Source: Deltaproteobacteria bacterium RBG_16_49_23
Lineage (GTDB): Bacteria > Desulfobacterota > BSN033 > UBA1163
Direction: 5' to 3'
DNA length: 64,000 bases
NCBI GenBank assembly: GCA_001798855.1
Contig: MGQQ01000106.1
Location: 1 to 64,000 of the forward strand
The notes below the pieces were generated by a model. That model had not been told where the DNA came from. It worked only from the letters and a program-made list of their open reading frames with translations, and searched no databases. Of the stretch, positions 10,698-25,387 are shown piece after piece. The position numbers and the translations under genes are program-made. Position 1 is the first letter of the stretch. Every line of letters starts with the position of its first letter.

Positions 10698-13600
10698 TTA
10701 CCTCATCATTAATATATCCCGATGGTATTCCTGGATTGATTTAACGGAGATACCCTTTTTGAGAAGAGATTCGATGCCATTGACCACTGCTTCAGCGCCG
10801 GAGAGAGTGGTAATGCAGGGGATGTTATGGGCAACCGCCTGGCTTCTGATGGCCCCTTCATCGACCTTGGGCTTCTTCCCGCTCGGGGTATTGATGACGA
10901 GCTGGATCTCTCCATTTTTCATCCGGTCCACGATATCGGGTCTTCCTTCGCCCACCTTGAACACGCTTTGAACCGGAATGCCGTTGTTCGCCAGGACCTT
11001 GGCCGTTCCCTTGGTGGCCACAATTTCGAATCCGAGATCAGCCAGCTTCTTGGCGACAAAAACGATGGATCGCTTGTCCTTATTCATCACGCTGATGAAG
11101 ACCCTCCCCTCCATCGGGATGGAGGCGCCGGCCGAAATTTGGGACTTGGCAAAGGCCACGCCGAAATCGGTATCGATCCCCATAACCTCCCCTGTCGATT
11201 TCATCTCCGGACCCAGAACCGGATCGACCCCGTAGAATCGCTTAAAAGGAAAGACCGACTCCTTGACAGCGATATGATGAATCTCCACTTCCCTCTCGAT
11301 TCCGAGCTCCTGAAGGGTCTTTCCGACCATCGCCTTGGCGGCCACCTTGGCCCATGGAATCCCCGTGGCCTTGCTGATAAAGGGAATGGTTCTCGAGGCC
11401 CTGGGGTTGACCTCCAGAATAAAGATCACATCGTTCTTGATGGCATACTGAATATTCATCAAGCCCACGACCTGGAGTTCCCTGACGAGCGCATAAGTAT
11501 TCTGCTTCAACTGTTCGATCAGGTCATCGCTCAGCGAGTAAGGGGGGGTGACACAGGCGCTGTCACCGGAATGGATCCCCGCGGCTTCGATATGTTCCAT
11601 GATTCCCGCGATGATGCAGGACGATCCATCTGAAACGGCATCGACATCGATCTCGATCGCATCTTCGAGGAATTTATCGATCAGGATGGGATGCATGGAA
11701 GACGCTTCCACGGCCCGGTGAACGAAGCGCTCAAGGGTGGCCTCGTCATAAACGATCTCCATTGCCCTTCCGCCCAGGACATAAGAAGGCCTTACGACCA
11801 CCGGATAACCGATGTCCTCGGCAACCCTCCTCGCCTCGTCAAAGGAGGTCGCCGTGCCATTCGGAGGCTGGATAAGACGGAGTTTATTGATGAGGGCCTG
11901 AAACCGTTTCCGGTCCTCAGCCTTGTCGATATTGTCAGGGCTTGTTCCAATGATCTTCGCCCCTGCCTTCTCCAGGGGAACAGCCAGATTGAGCGGGGTC
12001 TGGCCCCCGAATTGCACGATGATGCCGTCGGGTTTCTCCCCATCGACGATGTGAAGGACATCCTCGAGGGTGAGAGGCTCAAAGTAGAGTTTGTCAGAGG
12101 TGTCGTAGTCCGTCGAAACCGTTTCCGGATTGGAGTTGACCATGATCGCTTCGTAACCCAGCTCCTTGAGGGCAAAGGAGGCGTGGACACAACAGTAATC
12201 GAACTCAACGCCCTGGCCGATCCGGTTGGGACCTCCGCCGAGAATCATGACCTTCTTTCTCGAAGAAATCTTTACCTCATTCTCCACTTCGTAAGTGGAA
12301 TAATAATAGGGAGTGTAGGCTTCGAACTCGGCCCCACAGGTGTCGACCAGTTTATAGGTGGGGAGGATGGATCTTTCTTTTCTCATCCTCCGGATCGTAT
12401 TCTCATCGAAACCCAGGAGGTATCCTAACTGGACATCGGAGAATCCAAACTCCTTTGCCCTTCTTAAAAGTTCATCGGGAAGGCGGAGATGATCAGGTGT
12501 GCGGGTTTTTTGCCAGAGTTCAAGGTCCCTCATCTTTATTCCATAAGGGCGGATCTCTTTCTCAAATTCGACGATCTCCTGAATATTGAAGAGGAACCAG
12601 GGATCGATCCTGGTCAGCTCATAAATTTCTTCTACATTCATTCCCATGAGAAAGGCGTACCGGATGTAGAAGATCCTTTCCGCATCGGGCGTGCGAAGTT
12701 TTTCCTTGATCTGCAGGAGGGTCTGGGAACGGGCGGAATCGCCTGTGATCTCGTCCGGGAAAATCTTATCTTTTCCGTCCGCCCCCAGACCGAATCTTCC
12801 GATCTCCAGAGACCGGAGCCCTTTTTGGAGGGCCTCTTTGAAGGTCCTGCCAATGGCCATGGTCTCGCCAACCGATTTCATAGAGACGGTGAGCGTTGGG
12901 TCCGCATCCGGAAATTTTTCAAACGTAAACCGGGGGATCTTCACGACGCAGTAATCGATCGTCGGCTCAAAAGAGGCGGGCGTCTTCCGGGTGATGTCAT
13001 TCGAAATCTCATCAAGCGTATATCCCACGGCTAATTTTGCGGCAATCTTGGCAATCGGGAATCCCGTTGCTTTGGAGGCCAATGCGGAAGACCGGGAGAC
13101 CCTCGGGTTCATCTCAATGATGACCATCCGGCCATCTTCGGGATTGACCGCAAACTGAATGTTGGAGCCTCCGGTTTCCACGCCGATCTCCCGGATCACG
13201 CGGATCGCGGCATCCCTCATCCTCTGGTACTCTTTGTCTGTCAGGGTCTGAGCCGGGGCTACCGTGATGCTGTCTCCGGTGTGAATACCCATGGGGTCGA
13301 AGTTCTCGATGGAACAGACGATGACGGCATTATCATTGAGGTCCCTCATCACCTCCAGTTCAAACTCCTTCCATCCGAGGACAGCCTCTTCGATCAGAAT
13401 CTCTCCGATCATGCTCCATTCTAGCCCCCGGGCGGCCATCTCTTCAAACTCCTGGATATTATAGGCGACACCGCCTCCGGTGCCGCCCAGCGTGAAACTG
13501 GGCCTGATGATCAACGGGAAGCCGACCTCTTTTGCCGCCTCGATGGCCTCGGACATCGAGGCGGCCAGACCGCTTCTGGGGAGATCGAGGCCGATCTTTT

Positions 13601-14009
13601 TCATCGACTCCTTGAAGAGTTTCCGGTCCTCTCCTTTTTTAATCGCCTCATATTTGGCCCCGATCATCTGAACCTGATATTTTTCAAGGACTCCTGTCTC
13701 ATAGAGGGCCACAGAGACATTCAGGCCGGTCTGGCCGCCCAGGGTGGGGAGCAGGGCATCCGGTCGCTCGCGCTCGATGATCTTTTCCACGATTTCAGGC
13801 GTGATCGGCTCAATATAAATGCGGTCAGCCATCTCAGGGTCGGTCATGATGGTGGCGGGGTTGGAGTTGACCAGCACCACTTGAAAGCCTTCTTCCTTTA
13901 AGGCTTTGCAGGCCTGCGTGCCGGAATAGTCGAATTCGCAAGCCTGGCCGATGATGATGGGGCCGGATCCAATGATCAGGATTTTCTTGATATCCGTCCG
14001 TTTAGGCAT
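10698..14009 (-). CDS. carB: Carbamoyl-phosphate synthase large subunit
   Basis: 1103 aa; [41 protein letters not shown]; duplicated ATP-grasp domains, C-terminal MGS-like domain. Confidence 0.98.
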
Positions 14010-14130: not shown

Positions 14131-15273
14131 TCACTTCGAATCTTCTTCCATCATCTTTACAAATTCACCAAAGAGTTTTTGAGTGTCGTGAGGACCGGGA
14201 GAGGCTTCGGGATGATACTGGATCGAAAAAATCGGCATTTTTTTGTGTTTCATTCCCTCGAGTGTCCTGTCGTTGAGGTTGATCTGGGTCAACTCGATCT
14301 CATCCGTGTTGAGAGAATCCGGATCGACAGCGAACCCGTGGTTCTGGGAGGTGATCGTCACCTTGCCGGTTTTCAGATCTTTGACCGGCTGATTGGCCCC
14401 ATGGTGGCCGAACTTCAGTTTAAAGGTTTTGCCTCCCAAGGCCAGCCCCAGAAGCTGATGTCCGAGGCAGATGCCGAAGATGGGTTTCACTCCGATCAGT
14501 TTCCGGACCGTTTCAATGGCATAGGGCACTCCCTCCGGATCGCCCGGACCGTTGGAGAGGAGAATCCCATCCGGTTGGTAAGAGAGGATCGATTCGGGCT
14601 GAGAAGAGGCGGGCAGGACGGTCACCTCACAGCCCCATTCCCGGAGGGAACGGAGGATGTTGAACTTCACGCCGAAATCCATAACGACCACCCTTGGCCG
14701 AAAGTGGAAAGTGGAGTGTGGCTGGTTGTGAAGAGAGAATTCCGAGTCAATCCTCTCGGTCCATTCATAGGGTTTCTCGCAGGTGACTTCTCTTACCAGG
14801 TCCCGTCCGATCAAGCCCGGAGATGCCTGCACTTTCTCAATGAGACGCCCACGATGAAACTCTTCGGTGGAGAGGATCGCTTTCATGGCTCCCTTTTCAC
14901 GGATATATTTGGTGAGGGCTCTTGTATCCATTCCCTCGATCCCGATGATGCGGTGTGAAATCAGATACTCGGAAAGGGACCGATCTCCACGCCAGTTGCT
15001 GAAGCGGGAGCTGTTCTCTTTGATGATAAAACCTTCCACCTGCGGATCCCGGGATTCGGTATCCGCCTCATTGATGCCATAATTACCGATGAGGGGATAG
15101 GTCATAATGACAATCTGTCCCTTATAAGAAGGATCGGTCAGGATCTCCTGATAACCTGTCATGCTCGTATTGAAGACGAGTTCGCCTGCCTTCTCTCCGG
15201 GAAATCCGAACGACCTTCCCTCGAATATGGTCCCATCTTCCAGGGCGAGGATGGCTTTCTGCGTAGGTTTCAT
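14131..15273 (-). CDS. carA: Carbamoyl-phosphate synthase small subunit
   Basis: 380 aa; LALEDGTIFEGRSFGFPGEKAGELVFNTSMTGYQEILTDPSYKGQIV; GICLGHQLLGLALG glutaminase motif; QYHPEASPGPHD. Confidence 0.98.
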   Translation of the reverse strand: MKPTQKAILALEDGTIFEGRSFGFPGEKAGELVFNTSMTGYQEILTDPSYKGQIVIMTYPLIGNYGINEADTESRDPQVEGFIIKENSSRFSNWRGDRSLSEYLISHRIIGIEGMDTRALTKYIREKGAMKAILSTEEFHRGRLIEKVQASPGLIGRDLVREVTCEKPYEWTERIDSEFSLHNQPHSTFHFRPRVVVMDFGVKFNILRSLREWGCEVTVLPASSQPESILSYQPDGILLSNGPGDPEGVPYAIETVRKLIGVKPIFGICLGHQLLGLALGGKTFKLKFGHHGANQPVKDLKTGKVTITSQNHGFAVDPDSLNTDEIELTQINLNDRTLEGMKHKKMPIFSIQYHPEASPGPHDTQKLFGEFVKMMEEDSK

Positions 15274-15287
15274 AGAATCCTTTTTTT

Positions 15288-15343
15288 ATGTAGCGTCGGC
15301 ATTTACCCGCTGCGACAGCGCGGCGAGTTGCCGACGCTACATA
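15288..15343. repeat. Short palindromic element with near-perfect terminal inverted repeats ATGTAGCGTCGGCA / TGCCGACGCTACAT
   Basis: ATGTAGCGTCGGCA at 15288 and TTGCCGACGCTACAT ending at 15343; partial related sequence ATGTAGCGTCGGCATTGATTGCCGACG near 31198. Confidence 0.8.
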
Positions 15344-15367
15344 TGCCTCCAATCAATGGAGGCGCTA

Positions 15368-15420
15368 CTTAACTCCTCCCTACCTCCCCTTATTTTAAGG
15401 GGAGGTAGGGAGGAGTTAAG
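15368..15420. repeat. Perfect 25-bp inverted repeat with 3-nt loop in the carA leader
   Basis: CTTAACTCCTCCCTACCTCCCCTTA-TTT-TAAGGGGAGGTAGGGAGGAGTTAAG read directly. Confidence 0.9.
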
Positions 15421-15465
15421 GGAGGGGCCAAAAGTGAACAGAGAAGGTAGAAGGTTATCTCCTCA

Positions 15466-16137: not shown

Positions 16138-19100
16138 TTAATGATAGCCTTCCAAGCTGCCGGTGGGGACGATCCAGCGGAAATCTTCCGGGGTAACGGT
16201 TTGAAGGCGGCCGTCGATTCTGGCAGTGAGATGGCCATTCTCCCTGGAGAATCCGAGGCCGAAGGCCTTCTCCAGACGGAGGAGACGCTCTCTGATGTCA
16301 TTCCATTTCCTATCATCGACCGGGTTCAGCCTGCATCCCTGATACTGGGCTTTTTCCAGTCTATCCGAGGGATCGAAAAAGAGGACTTCTCCGGCAGAGG
16401 CGCCTGCAAGGATTTTTGCCCCTGTATAAGGGGAGGCCATCCGGCGAAGCTGCCCTTCCTGGTCACGATAAAGCCCCAGGAGGATAACCGATCCTCCCAT
16501 GAGGGCCTGGCAGAGATGCTCATAGGCCGTCCCAACGATGTTCACCTCCAGGCCCGGTCCGCGAGGATCGCTGACAGCACAGACCCATCCGCGGTCCACC
16601 ACATTGCCGAGAATGTTGAAAGTTCCTCCCTTGGCAGCATATCCAGCGACCTTGCCCACGTCACCGTGGATTTCCAGGGTCCCTGAATGCATGACCATTC
16701 CAGTGAAGTTCTGGGCATGATTGTGGACCCTTATCAACGCTCCCATATTGAAGGCGCCGCAGTACTCTCCCGGGCTTCCATAAACATCCACCGTCGTATC
16801 CGGAGTGAAACCAGAACCCATGCCCATGCCTATGCCCCGCTGGCCTTCCACCCTGTAGACAATGAATCTGCGCCATCCCATCCGGTGGGCATGATCGAGG
16901 AAGCAGCCTAAAACTTTTGAAGGATCGACTCCTTCAGGCAGGAATCCTCTGGCATCCACCACAAGCGCCTGCCCATTCTCTTCGGGTCCGTTCAGCTTTC
17001 CGGCATTGGCTAAATGGATACGAATCAACCCATTTTGGCCATTCACGTGATCAAGCATCTCGTTGATGTGGTTCTGTACAATATGGAAAAGGGCTCCCCG
17101 ATCTTTGCCGCCTGTATCCCAGCCGGGCAAATAGTCATAGATGCGGGTCAGCTCTTGGATGGCTCGTTTTTCAGGAAAGTCTCTGCGTACTTTCTCCAGG
17201 ACTGCCTTAAATTCACTGAATCTCCATTGCGAAATCCGATCCCGGAAGAGATCTATAGGATTGAAATCCCCGTTGACATCCATCGTTACCCCTCCGGAGG
17301 GAGAAGTTTCTTCAACAGGAAAGGTTCCGTGAGGAATCTCTATCGGCTGACCGAATTTGTCCAGCGCTTCATGCCCTATGATCTTTCCTGCTTCGTCGTA
17401 GAAGACCCTGCTCACCATGCCTGTTTTAACTGTAAAGTTCAGGGGAGCATAGGCGCTTCGCACCATTCCCAGGCGATGAAGTTCCTGCATTCCCGCATCA
17501 CACCCCTGTTTTTCAGAGCAGATGATACTTACGAAGTTCTCTCCGTCGTCATAAAGCAGGGCGACATTGGGTCTCAACAAGGATGGGTCGATAATGTCGA
17601 GCCGTTCAATCACCCGCCGATAGGGATCGATCCGGCCACAGAGATACTGATAGGGACCATCCGGCGCGCTTTCAAGCTCCGCCTCCTGAATGTGCTCGAA
17701 CCGTTCCCGGACCTCAGGGGGCAATTGAGTGAGATGGAACCCCGTGGTAGGGGAGAAGGATTCGACGAGTCCATCGAAAGGATAGTGAAGGCACTGACTG
17801 AGGAGGTGAAGCTTGAGAGAGGCCACAGCCGTATCGGTCTGAGCAAGGGGGGTCAAATCGAACTGAGAGACTCGATTCAACATGGTTCGATAATTCGTTG
17901 TTTCTCCATTATGCGTCAGGGCTGTGTGGAGCTCTGCAAAGGGGTGGGCATTCATCTGGTCAACCACAGAACCTGTAGCGAGCCTGCGGTGGATGACATT
18001 GACTGGAGCATCTGGCGTTTCCCATGGGATGTGCTGACCGTCTGTCTTCCAGCAGCCGGAATTTTTGCCACAGGAGAGAACAGCGACCTTCTTCTGTTGA
18101 TCTTCCACATAATTTTCTTGCGTGATCCTGCGAGAAAGCCGGTAGATATACTCATCCTCGGCTTCCCGTAAAAAATCCGCATTTGCCCTGTAATCTTCAA
18201 GGGTCAGGTCCGGATAGCGGGTCTGCCGTGGAGGCCAGATTGGGTCATTGAACAGTTCGTTTTCAATAAACCGACAGAGCTCTTCCCGGTGAACCCGCAC
18301 AAAAAGCCGGAACACATCTCCCGGATCTTTCTCGCCGTAAAGCCGGAAGTCTTTCTCCCTTCTCATTTCGTCGCGTTTATAGGGAATGCGGCAATTCTCC
18401 GGTTCCCCATCGAAGTTCTCGATTTGAAGCCCGTTGAAATAGCGTTTCAGCGCCTCGTCCATAATCTTCCGGCGTCTGGCCAGAATTTCCTGTCTGGCCC
18501 TTCGCTGAATTTCTTCCGGATCCATCTCCGGTTCTCTTACCGAATATTCACGCTCCACCTGCGATTGAGACAGGCCTTTGACCAGCACATGAATGGCATA
18601 GTGGTCCAGGTGTTGGGGATAGCATCCTCCCTTCCAGATTCCAACCCCATCCATTCCCCGGTTTGCCATCCGGTCGAGCATGAGATCCATGACACGGGCC
18701 GGGATGAAGTGATTGGAGACAATGGCTGCCACACCGCAATCCGAAGGAGGAGATGGGACTTCGGCGTAGAGAGAGTGGTCCCCAATATACTCTTCGGGTC
18801 TTTCCGGTATGGTGGTGGCCGGTCTTCGAATATTCAATCGGCTGCTGCGGCGACTCTTCACTCTTTCTTCGAACACAGGCCATTCAATCAAGTCATAGCG
18901 GCCCCGGAGCTCCCGAATGTCCATCAGTCCAAGGGCAGCAACCGCCCTTGTGACCTGGGCCTGCAAGGTTGCGCGGAAATTGATCAGCTGCTGGGTATTG
19001 GTTTCAACATCTCTTAACAACTGCATTTTGGGCTCAATGGTGGAAATGCCGCTCCTGCATCCCGATTCGCAGTTCCGATCCCGGACGCAGCCAATGGACA

Positions 19101-22100
19101 CAAGATCGGCTGTTCCAAGGACAACGCCATCGAGTCCCATGGCGATCCCTTTAATGATATCCCCCCATGTGCGAAATCCACCGCTTCCCAGGAAGACGAC
19201 ATCATCCCTCAAGCCGTCCTCTAACAATTTTTCGTGACAGAGAGGAATGGCGTACTCCATGTGCATTCCCATTTGACCTTTGATGATATCCGGGGCTGCG
19301 CCCGTTCCTCCGCGGGGCCCGTCCAACCAGACCTCAATGGTCATCCTGTTATCCCTGGCAATCCGGGCAAGGCCGGAAACGATAAATTCGATATCCGGCG
19401 AGGGTGAGACCTTAATACAGATGGAGGCCCCTGGGTTGATCATGCGCACAGCGTCGATGAAGGCTTTGACGTCTTCAATGGAGTAGCAATTGTGAAAGGG
19501 AAAAGGAGAGATAAGGCTCACCCCCTCAGCCACTCCGCGGAGCTTTGAGACAAGACCGAAAACTTTTCTCCCCAATAAATGGCCGCCCACTCCCTGTTTT
19601 GCTCCCTGGCTGTAAGCGATCACCACACGCCGGGCCTTCCGGATAGTCTCCTTGGTTACCCCGAAGAGCCCGGTCTTAAGCTGGGTGGCGACATAGGGTT
19701 CATCTTCCGGCATGACGATGGGGACGAACTGAACCGTCATGGAAGAAGGATATTTTTTGAGGACATCGAGTATCCCCTGAATTTCAGGAGAGCAATCCAT
19801 TTCCGCCTGGACCTTTTTCATCAGCTCGTCAATCGGAATGAGTTTTCGGGCTTTCATGATTCGGCTGAGCATCAGGATTTGCGATTCGGACAGGTCAATG
19901 GCATTCCATTTTTCATCGAGAATGTAGAAGGTGGGATATCCCCCTTCCCCTGTATCCATCTGAGTTTCAAGGGCCCGGGTTGCTAACACACGGGCACGCC
20001 AGGTCCCGGGGCCGATCGACCCAATGGACATCCCCGCGCCGATTAAAGGCGTCTTCAGCCTCAATTGAGGATTGATCTGGAGCCCGGTGAAGACCTGGTC
20101 GAGGTTCTCTTCCGGAAGGGTATCCGGGTTATGCTGAAAAAGGACATTGATAAAATCAAAGCCATCCCCCAGATTTCCGCGTTCCTCCGTATGACCGAGA
20201 AGAAGCGTCTCGCTATTTCCACTCGCCATGCGACTTACCGAAGCGATCAGAGAGGCTGGCCAGACGTAGTCACGATCGAAGATTTTATAACAGGAAGGCT
20301 TTAAATCACAGTTATAAAATCGATGGGGGGGCTGGGCTGGTTTGATTAAGTTTTTCAATTGACGATATCGCCAGCCGTTGCCATCTCCTTCCCGCCGAAT
20401 ACGCGACCCATTGGTCAGGCGGTTCCGTTCCAGCTTGTCCCGGCTTTTGAAAATGTCGTATACTCTTTCCTCGAGATCATCGAAAATGAGAAGGCGATTT
20501 TCTTCTCCCACGGTCTTCTTAATGTCCTTAAATCCCGAGGCCCCTAAGACCTCAATGATCTGGACATTCCAGACCCGTATGAGATTGGTAATCCGTTTGG
20601 ACAGGGTGGAGGGGTCGTGCAGAAGCGCTAAAGGCTCCCCTTTGAGAAACCTCTGCCGGGCAAGAGGATTTACGGTGAGAAGAACCGGCCAATCGATTTT
20701 GATCCCGTTCGCCCCGCGCTGAATGGTTTTCTGGGAATCCGCAGCGGAGCGAATGCCTCCGGCTGCCAGAATGGAAAAACGGTGCCGGATTTTTCTCTCC
20801 ACAAGGTAGCGATGGACAGCGGGGACGGCATCCGTGGTCAGGTAATATCCTTTTTCCGGATCGTAGTCCGAAGTGAGACAGAGTATGTCGAAAGGAGATT
20901 CGACAAGGGATTCTATTTTTTCCTTCAATACGGAAGCGGGCCGAAGCTCTGAGTCAACATCCCCCTTTTCAATCTTAATCACAGCGCTGAAGAGAGTCGA
21001 TTTTGGAAGACGAGCGGCAACTTTTTCTGTTTCTATTATAGCGACATCCTCAAACTCCATCTCCACCATGTCGGGAGGAAAATCCTCCACTATTTGGGGC
21101 CAGGCTTTTCCATTCTGGAGGTTTTTGATGTCCTGAGAGGTCAATCTCAAGATGACGCTGCCTGGCTTATCTGCAATGATCGAGGCATGACGCTCCATTT
21201 CCTCAAGATGGAGCGTGAGACGGGTACCCGTATGATGAACCGCCTCGAGCATGGCGCCCACCAGATCGTCTCCTCCGTCCATGGGCATGACATCCAGGAT
21301 GAGGGGCGTTTTTAAACTGATCAGCCGGGGAGGAGGGGTTTTCAGATCTTCTCCGATAAAGGTAAGATATTTGGGCCGCTGTCCCAGTAAGACGGCCACG
21401 GCATCGGCAGAGCTTTCATAGAGCAGGTTCTGAGCGGGACCCACAATATGAAAGTGTCCGAACCGGATGCCATCATTACCGGAACCACGATGGGGATCTC
21501 CTTGCCCCGTGCCTGAAACCGGAATCTTTCCTGTGGTGGCTTCGAGGTCGATATGGGTGATGACCTCGCTATCCCAGTAGGGATCATGCATGCTGAGGTA
21601 ATCGGGGTGGAGCTCCACGGTGGTTGCCGGAATTCCCTTGGCCACCTGCGGACACCGCTCAAGGCAGGCGCCACAGCCCCGGCAGAGGGCTTCGTCGGCG
21701 ACGACCACCCGGCGGGGGGCCATCTCATCCCTTTTCCTGACGCTATAAATACAGGCATCCACGCAGGTCCCGCAATGGAAACAAAAATCGTCGTCAATCA
21801 CAACATGGTACCTTGGAAAGGTCTGCCGCTTTTCTCGAATCTTCTGGTCGAAGCCTGTCCGGATAACATCCAGAAAGCGATAAAACTCAGGGCTGTTTTC
21901 CACTTCCCGGATAAAATCGGTTACTTCTTTAATGGGGAAATCGATCAAAGTGGAGAAGTATTTTTCCAGGTGGCCATAGAGCTTTCGATGGTTCAAATTG
22001 ACCTGGCACCCTTCATCACAGCGGCCGCAGTGAAGACAGAAATAGAGAGGCAAGATATTCGATAACTTAAGTTGATTCGTTTCCAAAGCTCTTTTGATGG

Positions 22101-23757
22101 TCAGAAGCTTCCCGCGGGCCGAAAAGGTTTCATCTCCGGTGGCCCGGAAAACCGGACACCGGCCGACACAGCTTCCACATTGTGCGCAGGCGTGGATGTC
22201 GTTCGAAATCTCTTTGAGGCCCTCTGGAATGACCGGGACCTGACGCCGGAGTTTTCTTTCCGGGATGAGGGAAAAGAATTTCAGGAGGAGCCACTGGGTG
22301 GCGGCGAGTTCAAGATTGAAGAGGTCAGCCTGGAAAAGGAGTTTCTGGAGACGACCGAGTTTCCCTGAGACGGAAAAGAATTTTCCCGGATTGAGGATTC
22401 CCTGAGGATCGACTTTCTTCTTATATTGAATGAGCCTTTTCCGCTCTTCTTTCGGATAGAGATGGCGGAGGAAAGGGGTGTTCCAGATTCCCAGGCCATA
22501 AGGCTTCCCTCCATAGAACTGGACAGCCAGCCTGACCATCATGGGAATAAGCAGAAGATCTGCGTAGAAAATGGCCTTCCGGTGGTCTGTGGCGATCATG
22601 GCTAAAAAGAGGGCCTGACCATCTTTTACAACATGAGAGGATGGATAAAGGGTCAATCCCAAACGTTTTCCCCAATCTCTAATCTTTTCGTGATAATCGG
22701 CAACTTGATCCAATGGGAGCAGGACCTCCGTGGCCAGAAGGGAAGGCCCGAGCGTCTTGATAGACATGGGGAGAAACCGTTCCTCCCAGAGGGCGTGAGC
22801 TGATTTTTCATCTCCAGGTTGAATTCTTTTTTCCTCAAGATAGGTTTTGAACTGGTTGGCCTTTTCCTTTTCGGTAAACACAGCCAGCGCGATGTTCTTA
22901 TCGTCGATCGTGATCTTCCCGTTCGACAGGGACTTGAGGGCCTGGATTAATTCGGTATGGTAGACGACGAGATCATCGGGTTTGATCGAGGGAAGAAGGG
23001 AAACCTGGTTAACGAACGTATAAGCGGCTTTTGGCTCCTTAAAGGGGATGATAAAGGGATAGCGCTCGGAAGGCTGCTTCCCAACCCGAAGAACGGCTTC
23101 CACAATGATTCCCATCTGCCCTTCCGTTGAGAGAAAATGGGTTATCTCCGGATCCTCTGCCTTTAGATTTAAAATATTCCCATCGGGAGTGATCACCCGG
23201 ATGGAAATCAACTGTTCCCGGACCGGACCGTGGGAGAAAGTGCCAAATCCCATACCTCCTGTGGCGATCCATCCGATCAGGGTGCCGCCTTTCCCTGAGG
23301 TCATGCTGAGAAGGGTTAAGCCCTGACGTTCCAGGGCCTGATGGATGTCTAAGAAACGAGCTCCGGGCCCTACAGTCAGCCGGGGCGTCCCGGGATCCAC
23401 CTCAATCTTATCCATGAACCCGAGATCGATCACTATCCCGCCATGGGTGGGGACCGATCCGCCATATCCCCATGTCCCTGCGCCGCGGACAGTCACAGGA
23501 ATTTTGTGCAACCGGACAAGCTCAAAGATCTTCAGGAGATGTTCTTCTGCTTTAGGTTGAATCACGAGGTCCGGCAGACTCTTAAGCAGGAGATCACGGA
23601 TCAACGGAGGAAGATCAACATTCAGATCATTTCGGTAATACTCAAGCTTTTCGGGATCTTCGATGGCCTTCAGGTCGGGATTGCGCTGTAAAAAATCTTC
23701 AAGGTATTTTCTCCAGCCTAATTTTTCTTTCTTCTGGTCCACTTTAATTACCCTCAC
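16138..23757 (-). CDS. Giant multidomain glutamate synthase-like fusion: FAD_binding_4 (GlcD-like) + GlcF-like Fe-S + 2x[4Fe-4S] + GltB-type FMN domain + class II glutamine amidotransferase + GXGXG domain
   Basis: Uninterrupted 2539-aa ORF; VTVRGAGTWGYGG (FAD); CAQCGSCVGRCP, CLHCGRCDEGC, CFHCGTCVDAC, CRGCGACLERCP (Fe-S); GAKQGVGGHLLGRKV...SIEDVKAFI...GPRGGTGAAP...GCVRDRNCESGC (GltB FMN/[3Fe-4S]-like); DCGVAAIVSNH...LATGS..NAHPF..THNGETTNY..TDTAV (GATase II); VYGSPGEYCGAFNMGALIRVHNHAQNFTG (GXGXG). Confidence 0.9.
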   Translation of the reverse strand: MRVIKVDQKKEKLGWRKYLEDFLQRNPDLKAIEDPEKLEYYRNDLNVDLPPLIRDLLLKSLPDLVIQPKAEEHLLKIFELVRLHKIPVTVRGAGTWGYGGSVPTHGGIVIDLGFMDKIEVDPGTPRLTVGPGARFLDIHQALERQGLTLLSMTSGKGGTLIGWIATGGMGFGTFSHGPVREQLISIRVITPDGNILNLKAEDPEITHFLSTEGQMGIIVEAVLRVGKQPSERYPFIIPFKEPKAAYTFVNQVSLLPSIKPDDLVVYHTELIQALKSLSNGKITIDDKNIALAVFTEKEKANQFKTYLEEKRIQPGDEKSAHALWEERFLPMSIKTLGPSLLATEVLLPLDQVADYHEKIRDWGKRLGLTLYPSSHVVKDGQALFLAMIATDHRKAIFYADLLLIPMMVRLAVQFYGGKPYGLGIWNTPFLRHLYPKEERKRLIQYKKKVDPQGILNPGKFFSVSGKLGRLQKLLFQADLFNLELAATQWLLLKFFSLIPERKLRRQVPVIPEGLKEISNDIHACAQCGSCVGRCPVFRATGDETFSARGKLLTIKRALETNQLKLSNILPLYFCLHCGRCDEGCQVNLNHRKLYGHLEKYFSTLIDFPIKEVTDFIREVENSPEFYRFLDVIRTGFDQKIREKRQTFPRYHVVIDDDFCFHCGTCVDACIYSVRKRDEMAPRRVVVADEALCRGCGACLERCPQVAKGIPATTVELHPDYLSMHDPYWDSEVITHIDLEATTGKIPVSGTGQGDPHRGSGNDGIRFGHFHIVGPAQNLLYESSADAVAVLLGQRPKYLTFIGEDLKTPPPRLISLKTPLILDVMPMDGGDDLVGAMLEAVHHTGTRLTLHLEEMERHASIIADKPGSVILRLTSQDIKNLQNGKAWPQIVEDFPPDMVEMEFEDVAIIETEKVAARLPKSTLFSAVIKIEKGDVDSELRPASVLKEKIESLVESPFDILCLTSDYDPEKGYYLTTDAVPAVHRYLVERKIRHRFSILAAGGIRSAADSQKTIQRGANGIKIDWPVLLTVNPLARQRFLKGEPLALLHDPSTLSKRITNLIRVWNVQIIEVLGASGFKDIKKTVGEENRLLIFDDLEERVYDIFKSRDKLERNRLTNGSRIRREGDGNGWRYRQLKNLIKPAQPPHRFYNCDLKPSCYKIFDRDYVWPASLIASVSRMASGNSETLLLGHTEERGNLGDGFDFINVLFQHNPDTLPEENLDQVFTGLQINPQLRLKTPLIGAGMSIGSIGPGTWRARVLATRALETQMDTGEGGYPTFYILDEKWNAIDLSESQILMLSRIMKARKLIPIDELMKKVQAEMDCSPEIQGILDVLKKYPSSMTVQFVPIVMPEDEPYVATQLKTGLFGVTKETIRKARRVVIAYSQGAKQGVGGHLLGRKVFGLVSKLRGVAEGVSLISPFPFHNCYSIEDVKAFIDAVRMINPGASICIKVSPSPDIEFIVSGLARIARDNRMTIEVWLDGPRGGTGAAPDIIKGQMGMHMEYAIPLCHEKLLEDGLRDDVVFLGSGGFRTWGDIIKGIAMGLDGVVLGTADLVSIGCVRDRNCESGCRSGISTIEPKMQLLRDVETNTQQLINFRATLQAQVTRAVAALGLMDIRELRGRYDLIEWPVFEERVKSRRSSRLNIRRPATTIPERPEEYIGDHSLYAEVPSPPSDCGVAAIVSNHFIPARVMDLMLDRMANRGMDGVGIWKGGCYPQHLDHYAIHVLVKGLSQSQVEREYSVREPEMDPEEIQRRARQEILARRRKIMDEALKRYFNGLQIENFDGEPENCRIPYKRDEMRREKDFRLYGEKDPGDVFRLFVRVHREELCRFIENELFNDPIWPPRQTRYPDLTLEDYRANADFLREAEDEYIYRLSRRITQENYVEDQQKKVAVLSCGKNSGCWKTDGQHIPWETPDAPVNVIHRRLATGSVVDQMNAHPFAELHTALTHNGETTNYRTMLNRVSQFDLTPLAQTDTAVASLKLHLLSQCLHYPFDGLVESFSPTTGFHLTQLPPEVRERFEHIQEAELESAPDGPYQYLCGRIDPYRRVIERLDIIDPSLLRPNVALLYDDGENFVSIICSEKQGCDAGMQELHRLGMVRSAYAPLNFTVKTGMVSRVFYDEAGKIIGHEALDKFGQPIEIPHGTFPVEETSPSGGVTMDVNGDFNPIDLFRDRISQWRFSEFKAVLEKVRRDFPEKRAIQELTRIYDYLPGWDTGGKDRGALFHIVQNHINEMLDHVNGQNGLIRIHLANAGKLNGPEENGQALVVDARGFLPEGVDPSKVLGCFLDHAHRMGWRRFIVYRVEGQRGIGMGMGSGFTPDTTVDVYGSPGEYCGAFNMGALIRVHNHAQNFTGMVMHSGTLEIHGDVGKVAGYAAKGGTFNILGNVVDRGWVCAVSDPRGPGLEVNIVGTAYEHLCQALMGGSVILLGLYRDQEGQLRRMASPYTGAKILAGASAGEVLFFDPSDRLEKAQYQGCRLNPVDDRKWNDIRERLLRLEKAFGLGFSRENGHLTARIDGRLQTVTPEDFRWIVPTGSLEGYH

Positions 23758-23785: not shown

Positions 23786-23966
23786 CCATGAAATCCCCCT
23801 CAATCCCCCTTTTACAAAGGGGGATAAATAGCCTCCCCTTGGTCTCCGACTCAGAGCGGTCTCTGACCCGGAGGGCAAAGGGAGGAATTCCCCCTCTTTG
23901 GAAAAGAGGGGTCAGGGGAGATTTTCACAACAACATGTCTTTTCAATTATAGACTCCTTAGTAAAG
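23786..23966. repeat. Dispersed palindromic repeat, family B copy 1
   Basis: Ends in AGAGGGGTCAGGGGAGATTTTCACAACAACATGTCTTTTCAATTATAGACTCCTTAGTAAAG; shared with copies near 36012 and 46184. Confidence 0.75.
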
Positions 23967-23988: not shown

Positions 23989-25317
23989 CTACAGAATCGG
24001 TAGATATTTCTCCAGCTCGAATTGGGAAACATGTGTCCGGTATTGATCCCATTCGATCTTTTTATTCTCGATAAATTTTTGGAAGATGTGCTCCCCCAGC
24101 GTTTCCCTGACCAGCTCACTTTTTTCTGTGAGCTGGATGGCCTCCAACAGGTTTCCCGGAAGAGAATCGATCCCGTGTCTCGCTCTTGCCTCCTCATTCA
24201 TCTCAAAGATGTCTTCTTCAACGGGCGGAGGAAGCTCATAACCCTTTTCCATTCCCTTTAAACCGGCAGCCAACATGACGGCGAATGCCAGATAAGGATT
24301 GCATGCCGGGTCAGGGGACCGGAGCTCGATCCGTGTGGCTTTCTCTTTTCCCGGCTTGTACATGGGGACCCGGACAAGGGCAGAGCGATTCCTCCGGGCC
24401 CATGAAATATAGACCGGCGCTTCATAACCCGGGACGAGTCTCTTATAGGAGTTGATCCACTGAGAGGTGATCGATGTGATCTCCTTCGAATGTTTGAGAA
24501 TTCCAGCAATATAGGACTTTGCAATCTTTGAAAGATGGAATTCGTCTTTCGGGTCATGGAAGGCATTCCTATCGCCCTTGAAAAGGGATTGATGGGTATG
24601 CATACCGCTGCCATTCTGCTTGAAAATGGGTTTGGGCATGAAGGTGGCGTAGACGCCATGCTTCAGGGCAATCTCTTTGACGACGAGGCGATAGGTCATG
24701 GCATTGTCCGCCATGGCCAGGGCCTCGGCATAACGGAGGTCAATCTCATGCTGGCTGGGCGCCACCTCGTGATGGCTGTACTCCACATGAATCCCCATGG
24801 CCTCCAGCGTGAGAATCGTCTCACGGCGGAGTTCGGTCGCCATATCAAGGGGGGTCAGGTCAAAATATCCCCCCTTATCAAGGATCTGCGGGACGCCATC
24901 GCTACTTTTAAAATAGAAATATTCCAGTTCAGGCCCAACATAGAATGTATAGCCAAGATCCTGCGCCTTTTTGAGAGTCCTTTTTAAGGCCCACCGGGGG
25001 TCGCCCTTATAGGGGGTTCCATCGGGCTCATAGATATCTGCAAACATCCTGGCCACGGCATTCTCTTTCGGCCTCCATGGCATGATCTGAAAGGTTTTCG
25101 GGTCAGGCTTGGCGATCATGTCGCTCTCATCGATACGGGCATAACCCTGAATCGAGGAGCCATCAAATCCCATGCCTTCTTCAAGAGCCCCCTCCAGTTC
25201 GTCGATCGTGATTGCAAACCCCTTTAAGAACCCCAGAATGTCCGTGAACCAGAGCCGAATAAATTTAACATCATTCTCCTTTGCCATCTTCACAACATTT
25301 TCTTTCTCTTTATCCAT
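23989..25317 (-). CDS. glnA: Glutamine synthetase type I
   Basis: GFDGSSIQGYARIDESDMIAKPDP, NGSGMHTHQSLF, RSPDPACNPYLAFA; start set at MDKEKENV with SD ggaggag (ORF track starts at 25338). Confidence 0.97.
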   Translation of the reverse strand: MDKEKENVVKMAKENDVKFIRLWFTDILGFLKGFAITIDELEGALEEGMGFDGSSIQGYARIDESDMIAKPDPKTFQIMPWRPKENAVARMFADIYEPDGTPYKGDPRWALKRTLKKAQDLGYTFYVGPELEYFYFKSSDGVPQILDKGGYFDLTPLDMATELRRETILTLEAMGIHVEYSHHEVAPSQHEIDLRYAEALAMADNAMTYRLVVKEIALKHGVYATFMPKPIFKQNGSGMHTHQSLFKGDRNAFHDPKDEFHLSKIAKSYIAGILKHSKEITSITSQWINSYKRLVPGYEAPVYISWARRNRSALVRVPMYKPGKEKATRIELRSPDPACNPYLAFAVMLAAGLKGMEKGYELPPPVEEDIFEMNEEARARHGIDSLPGNLLEAIQLTEKSELVRETLGEHIFQKFIENKKIEWDQYRTHVSQFELEKYLPIL

Positions 25318-25387
25318 CTTCTCCTCCTTTTTTCTCACTTTTCCCCTCTCCCTTTGGGGGAGAGGGATAGGGTGAGGGGAAAATATA

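Follow-up and report, generated by a model that had tools for sequence, protein, structure and literature searches.

In class II amidotransferases the free alpha-amine of the nucleophilic Cys is the accepted general base, and these enzymes are described as needing that Cys freed at the N-terminus. In this class (MEROPS C44) a few residues stand in front of the Cys and are removed autocatalytically (PMC9140057). Glutamate synthase (GltS) has its glutaminase at the N-terminal end, where the domain occupies residues 1-422 and begins with Cys1, and an ammonia tunnel leads from it to the FMN site (PMC8097209). The clade of fused glutamate synthases considered here carries the Cys deep inside one long chain and offers a direct natural test of the rule that it must be freed.

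The window, a stretch of 64,000 nucleotides from Deltaproteobacteria bacterium RBG_16_49_23, contains an ORF at 16138-23757 on the minus strand that starts with GTG and encodes 2539 aa in a single reading frame. Its parts, together with the gene upstream of it, are as follows.

23989..25338, minus strand: glutamine synthetase gene (glnA), PF00120 7.8e-133, directly upstream of the giant ORF on the same strand
16138..23757, minus strand: fused glutamate synthase ORF, 2539 aa, GTG start; 11 further genomes have intact ORFs of 2531-2571 aa
22381..23574, minus strand: FAD-binding domain resembling GlcD/lactate dehydrogenase, residues 62-459 (PF01565 4.7e-29, PF02913 1.4e-7); a gene of its own in split operons L038 and L041
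21640..22197, minus strand: Fe-S region, residues 521-706 (PF13183, PF13237), with four CxxCxxCxxxC motifs
20248..21540, minus strand: "mid" region, residues 740-1170, diverged and glutamate-synthase-like; a weak second PF01645 match, 26-31% identical to split-operon ORFs
18928..20094, minus strand: FMN glutamate synthase domain, residues 1222-1610 (PF01645 5.8e-74)
18739..18876, minus strand: hypervariable linker (about residues 1628-1673), rich first in Arg and then in Pro, with an invariant Ser-Asp as its last two residues
18736..18744, minus strand: Ser1672-Asp1673 / Cys1674, putative cleavage site and Ntn nucleophile, invariant in 16/16; the Cys aligned to Cys1 of GlmS/PurF/AsnB
17428..18738, minus strand: class II glutamine amidotransferase (GATase) domain, about residues 1674-2110; PF13522 5.8e-6, which for the whole protein falls just short of the Pfam cut-off but passes it when the genome is searched; profile-profile comparison with GlmS/PurF/AsnB gives 1.9e-8
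18064..18588, minus strand: GATase insertion of ~170 aa, about residues 1724-1898, modelled by AF2 as an alpha/beta domain with pLDDT mostly >75
17968..17991, minus strand: HRRLATGS, residues 1923-1930, containing the glutamine-site Arg; in the alignment its counterpart in GlmS is HTRWATHG
17905..17913, minus strand: His-Asn1950-Gly1951, oxyanion hole, invariant, aligned with HNG of GlmS
17833..17835, minus strand: Asp1975 of TDTAV, by alignment the residue binding the glutamine amino group, invariant, aligned with TDTEV of GlmS
16345..16803, minus strand: GXGXG beta-helix, residues 2319-2471 (PF01493 2.7e-9)

Downstream of the giant ORF lie carA (14131-15273) and carB (10698-14009). The intergenic flanks of the giant gene (15330-15440 and 23800-23920) are rich in complementary pyrimidine/purine segments and may be repeats. 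Both glutamate synthase domains, PF01645 and PF01493, are present in the ORF, and a Pfam search found no Glu_syn_central match in it. Searching the genome with PF01645 and PF00310 gave no other glutamate synthase with a GATase; the next PF01645 protein lacks one. As the ORF is the genome's only strong PF01645 match, and PF00310 has no match anywhere in the genome, it is the glutamate synthase (GOGAT) candidate of this organism. Glutamate dehydrogenase-family genes (PF00208) are also present, and with them the organism need not strictly depend on a working GOGAT. Just past the end of the window, on the same contig (C106), the genome encodes a 522-aa GATase-less FMN glutamate-synthase-like protein (L050:8899-10467), near which lies a second glutamine-synthetase-like gene (L050:11827-13158).

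The four CxxCxxCxxxC motifs of the Fe-S region start at residues 524, 574, 659 and 692, suggesting four putative [4Fe-4S] clusters, and are kept in all of the long fused homologues listed. Within the FMN synthase domain, C1557-x5-C-x3-C is conserved in the fused homologues and is, by sequence, a candidate [3Fe-4S] Cys triplet. The "mid" region, situated between the Fe-S region and the FMN synthase domain, is a gene of its own in the split operons. Elsewhere in the phylum these operons encode the same parts as separate collinear genes: a FAD/Fe-S protein, a Fe-S/FMN-like protein of ~475 aa (26-31% identical to the "mid" region), an FMN synthase of ~500 aa (43-48% identical to the corresponding domain) and a GATase-GXGXG protein of ~880 aa, whose gene in L038 starts 14-20 bases past the stop codon of the FMN gene. 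This makes an in-frame fusion the best reading of the giant protein, the genes joined being those of a collinear operon (FAD/Fe-S, diverged FMN-like, FMN synthase and GATase+GXGXG), an origin that would account for the internal position of the Cys. In the stretch read, only some split operons (L038 and L041, as against L033 and L035-L037) include the FAD/Fe-S gene, and within the split family the module that supplies electrons may be optional.

In the set searched, 12 genomes (counting that of the window) have the fused ORF intact, at 2531-2571 aa, and it is intact as well in public GTDB MAG contigs, which overlap that set in part. The carriers are a group of uncultured syntroph-like bacteria. 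Within the window's family the fused gene is found in 14 of 17 genomes (one cut by a contig end, two interrupted), and one further genome that carries it is placed in another family. Interruptions within the GATase are seen in L043 (G008), where open frames overlap, and in L044 (G016), where an undetermined residue stands at the break; either could reflect sequencing error or a real disruption. The split form, as GATase-GXGXG ORFs of about 865-1010 aa, occurs in about 88 of 395 surveyed genomes of the phylum. The fused homologues stand at 67-78% identity and the split relatives at about 30%. A tree of the GATase region, a quick one in which some branch lengths are unreliable, places the 14 fused sequences on the same side of a branch that has full support, a grouping consistent with one fusion event behind the fused clade.

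The sequence-only reading had placed the presumed nucleophile at about residue 1674 (codon 18736-18738) with no Met directly before it, and the ORF translation agrees on both counts, reading EVPSPPSD-CGVAAIVSNHF with Asp1673 as the preceding residue. The motifs it had listed as retained downstream (LATGS, NAHPF, THNGETTNY and TDTAV) are all conserved in a 12-row alignment of fused sequences, and NAHPF too aligns with GlmS in the profile alignment. Across fused and split homologues HR/T, HP, HNG..NY and TDT are invariant. The comparison of homologues proposed in that reading shows the Cys itself in every one of 16 fused, 30 split and 6 solo sequences, the fused and split sets having been chosen by motifs that contain this Cys; two alignments (A1 and A2) and a profile search independently recover the same Cys column. 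In hhalign, a profile built from the 62 N-terminal residues places the Cys on Cys1 of GlmS, PurF and AsnB from this genome, in all of which Met immediately precedes the Cys, and scores 25.1 where none of 100 column-shuffled controls went above 17.8. The alignment of the full-length part to the same three proteins stopped short of the Cys because of the ~170-aa insertion. This insertion lies between the first GATase helix and the HRRLAT motif, has a shorter version in the split relatives, and gave weak matches to ferredoxin-like folds in structure comparison (Z 4.5-4.7).

As a single query against PDB sequences the 866-aa part gave no phmmer match, whereas its alignment profile did match PDB sequences. 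AlphaFold models of GATase+GXGXG and of the GATase alone had poor cores (mean pLDDT 60 and 54) on a shallow input alignment of 12 close rows that left out the split homologues. Structure comparison was informative mainly on the beta-helix, which matched the C-terminal part of GltS in 6s6s, 7mfm, 1ofe and 1ea0 (Z 16-17, VIA-align); among the matches listed there was no separate class II GATase structure. The domain has a CG[IV]...RG motif whose Cys opens the first strand, as well as the Arg, Asn-Gly and Asp of the glutamine site. The Cys of an ordinary C44 member stands at residue 1 or after a short leader, whereas 1673 residues precede it here, and we therefore file the domain as class II-type in an unusual place.

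Among the 16 fused sequences the linker is highly variable before position -6, with column entropy mostly 2.5-3.4 bits upstream, and the entropy falls to 0 at Ser(-2) and Asp(-1), which are identical in 16/16. Alignment A2, for which neither Ser nor Asp served as a selection criterion, gives the same invariance (S59, D60). The codons vary at this site (TCG/TCC/TCA, GAT/GAC and TGC/TGT) and do so only synonymously, indicating that it is the residues and not the DNA that are under conservation. Since the leader-side residues of an Ntn Cys are absent from the mature enzyme, conservation of Ser-Asp suggests a function prior to cleavage or in the course of it. All 30 sequences of the split clade have Glu-Gly-Gly before the Cys, closing a leader that runs to about 30-38 aa from the predicted starts. 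The sequence-only reading had asked whether some homologues have the Cys N-terminal; in these distant relatives it is near the N-terminus and not at residue 1. The solo GATases have Ser-Asn or Ser-Gly before a Cys that lies about 12-17 aa after the likely Met. Judged from these predicted leaders in the split and solo forms, this GATase family generally has a leader whose conserved end differs from clade to clade, and the fused clade is the extreme case.

Taken together, these observations suggest, with a probability that we put at roughly 0.6, that the fused GOGAT undergoes cleavage at SD|C, most likely by its own catalysis, to give two chains that remain associated. The lengths previously given for such products, ~1673 and 866 aa, are correct by the ORF coordinates. 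On this reading an ancestral collinear operon would have fused in such a way that the GATase+GXGXG part came to lie at the C-terminal and not the N-terminal end. After folding, Cys1674 would attack the carbonyl of Asp1673 and the peptide bond would be cut, freeing the Cys alpha-amine as propeptide removal does in other class II amidotransferases. The resulting 1673-aa redox/synthase chain and 866-aa glutaminase/beta-helix chain would stay together through contacts of the glutamate synthase domains. Ammonia from glutamine would then pass to the FMN site, where 2-oxoglutarate would be converted to glutamate with electrons supplied through FAD and the Fe-S clusters. An evenly balanced possibility is that the 1673-residue redox/synthase acts as a "propeptide" of the Ntn amidotransferase, the single chain cutting itself at the invariant Ser-Asp|Cys site into two associated chains, so that ammonia release would not switch on until the megaenzyme is complete and folded. 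Set against cleavage is the length of what would be removed, 1673 residues compared to a few in described enzymes (PMC9140057) and about 30-38 in the split relatives.

Cutting at SD|C could also be the work of a separate host protease rather than of the chain itself. Pro-rich, hypervariable linkers are open to proteases and the conserved Ser-Asp might be a protease site, yet maturation in class II amidotransferases is described as autocatalytic (PMC9140057), and we consider a host protease unlikely. It is rather improbable that the chain stays intact with a glutaminase that works without a free N-terminal amine on its Cys, another base or water substituting. All side-chain motifs are retained and a flexible linker could keep the Cys accessible, but an intact chain leaves unexplained why a hypervariable linker keeps just the two residues next to the Cys constant and why the leader-bearing split relatives have a parallel invariant EGG, and it dispenses with the alpha-amine that is taken as general base in this class.

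We are similarly doubtful that the glutaminase is inactive and the enzyme runs on free ammonia. The internal Cys speaks for this reading, as do the glutamate dehydrogenase-family genes of the genome. However, Cys, Arg, His, Asn-Gly and Asp are invariant among fused sequences 67-78% identical and common to split relatives at ~30%, and glnA adjoins the gene. The sequence-only reading had left a choice between cleavage at D|C and a glutaminase that is inactive or mechanistically unusual; the invariant Ser-Asp, the kept catalytic motifs, the adjacent glnA and the standing of this protein as the only GATase-bearing GOGAT found favour cleavage over inactivity. It is very improbable that a separate GATase chain arises from internal translation initiation or that the fusion is an assembly error: the window has GTG/TTG codons 33-51 codons upstream of the Cys and two homologous genes are interrupted in their assemblies, but internal initiation is made unlikely by three homologues (L006, L007 and L013) with no in-frame ATG, GTG or TTG within 60 codons before the Cys, so that no internal start is conserved, a product begun further upstream, for example inside the FMN domain, would keep the Cys internal and still need cleavage, and the intact fused ORFs of 12 genomes in the searched set rule out an assembly artefact.

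If the fused GOGAT does cleave itself, it would be a polyprotein-like metabolic enzyme in which production of the two subunits at 1:1 is guaranteed and activation of the glutaminase is delayed. If it is instead uncleaved and active, it would show that an amidotransferase of class II can function with no free Cys at its N-terminus. The SD motif of the fused form and the EGG motif of the split form before the Cys also provide a natural comparison for what drives the maturation of Ntn amidotransferases.

The closest system for comparison is the split GOGAT operon of the same phylum (L033-L041 and L054-L083; four-gene form in L038 and L041), which has the same domains in the same order, with a GATase-GXGXG protein ~30% identical to the fused one, the same catalytic motifs and a conserved short motif before the Cys. 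It differs in that the genes are separate and the GATase has its own Met and an EGG leader of ~30-38 aa, while the fused form has SD and no start of its own. The alpha subunit of bacterial NADPH-GltS (GltB; 1EA0, 6S6S) and Fd-GOGAT (1OFD, 1LLW) share the glutaminase, FMN synthase and GXGXG beta-helix with the giant ORF, which has in addition N-terminal FAD and Fe-S domains and, unlike them, lacks a Glu_syn_central match; their glutaminase is N-terminal, whereas that of the giant ORF begins at residue 1674, after 1673 residues. The NADH-GOGAT of plants and conifers (a GltB+GltD fusion of about 2200 aa) is likewise a giant single-chain glutamate synthase, with an N-terminal glutaminase that follows a plastid transit peptide (PMC5775586). 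Its Cys is therefore not internal between catalytic domains, unlike that of the giant ORF. Gamma-glutamyl transpeptidase, an example of a self-cleaving Ntn hydrolase, belongs to a different family with a Thr nucleophile, and its upstream chain is part of the hydrolase itself, whereas in the giant ORF the upstream chain would be a separate redox enzyme. What is expected in common is a two-chain product with the Ntn nucleophile exposed by internal cleavage, as described for gamma-glutamyl transpeptidase (PMC9140057). In the open-access literature (subscription journals being outside its scope) we found no report of an internal nucleophile in any class II amidotransferase, nor of a fused GOGAT built in this way. 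Propeptide removal itself is known; what would be new is that the part removed is a 1673-residue enzyme instead of a short propeptide.
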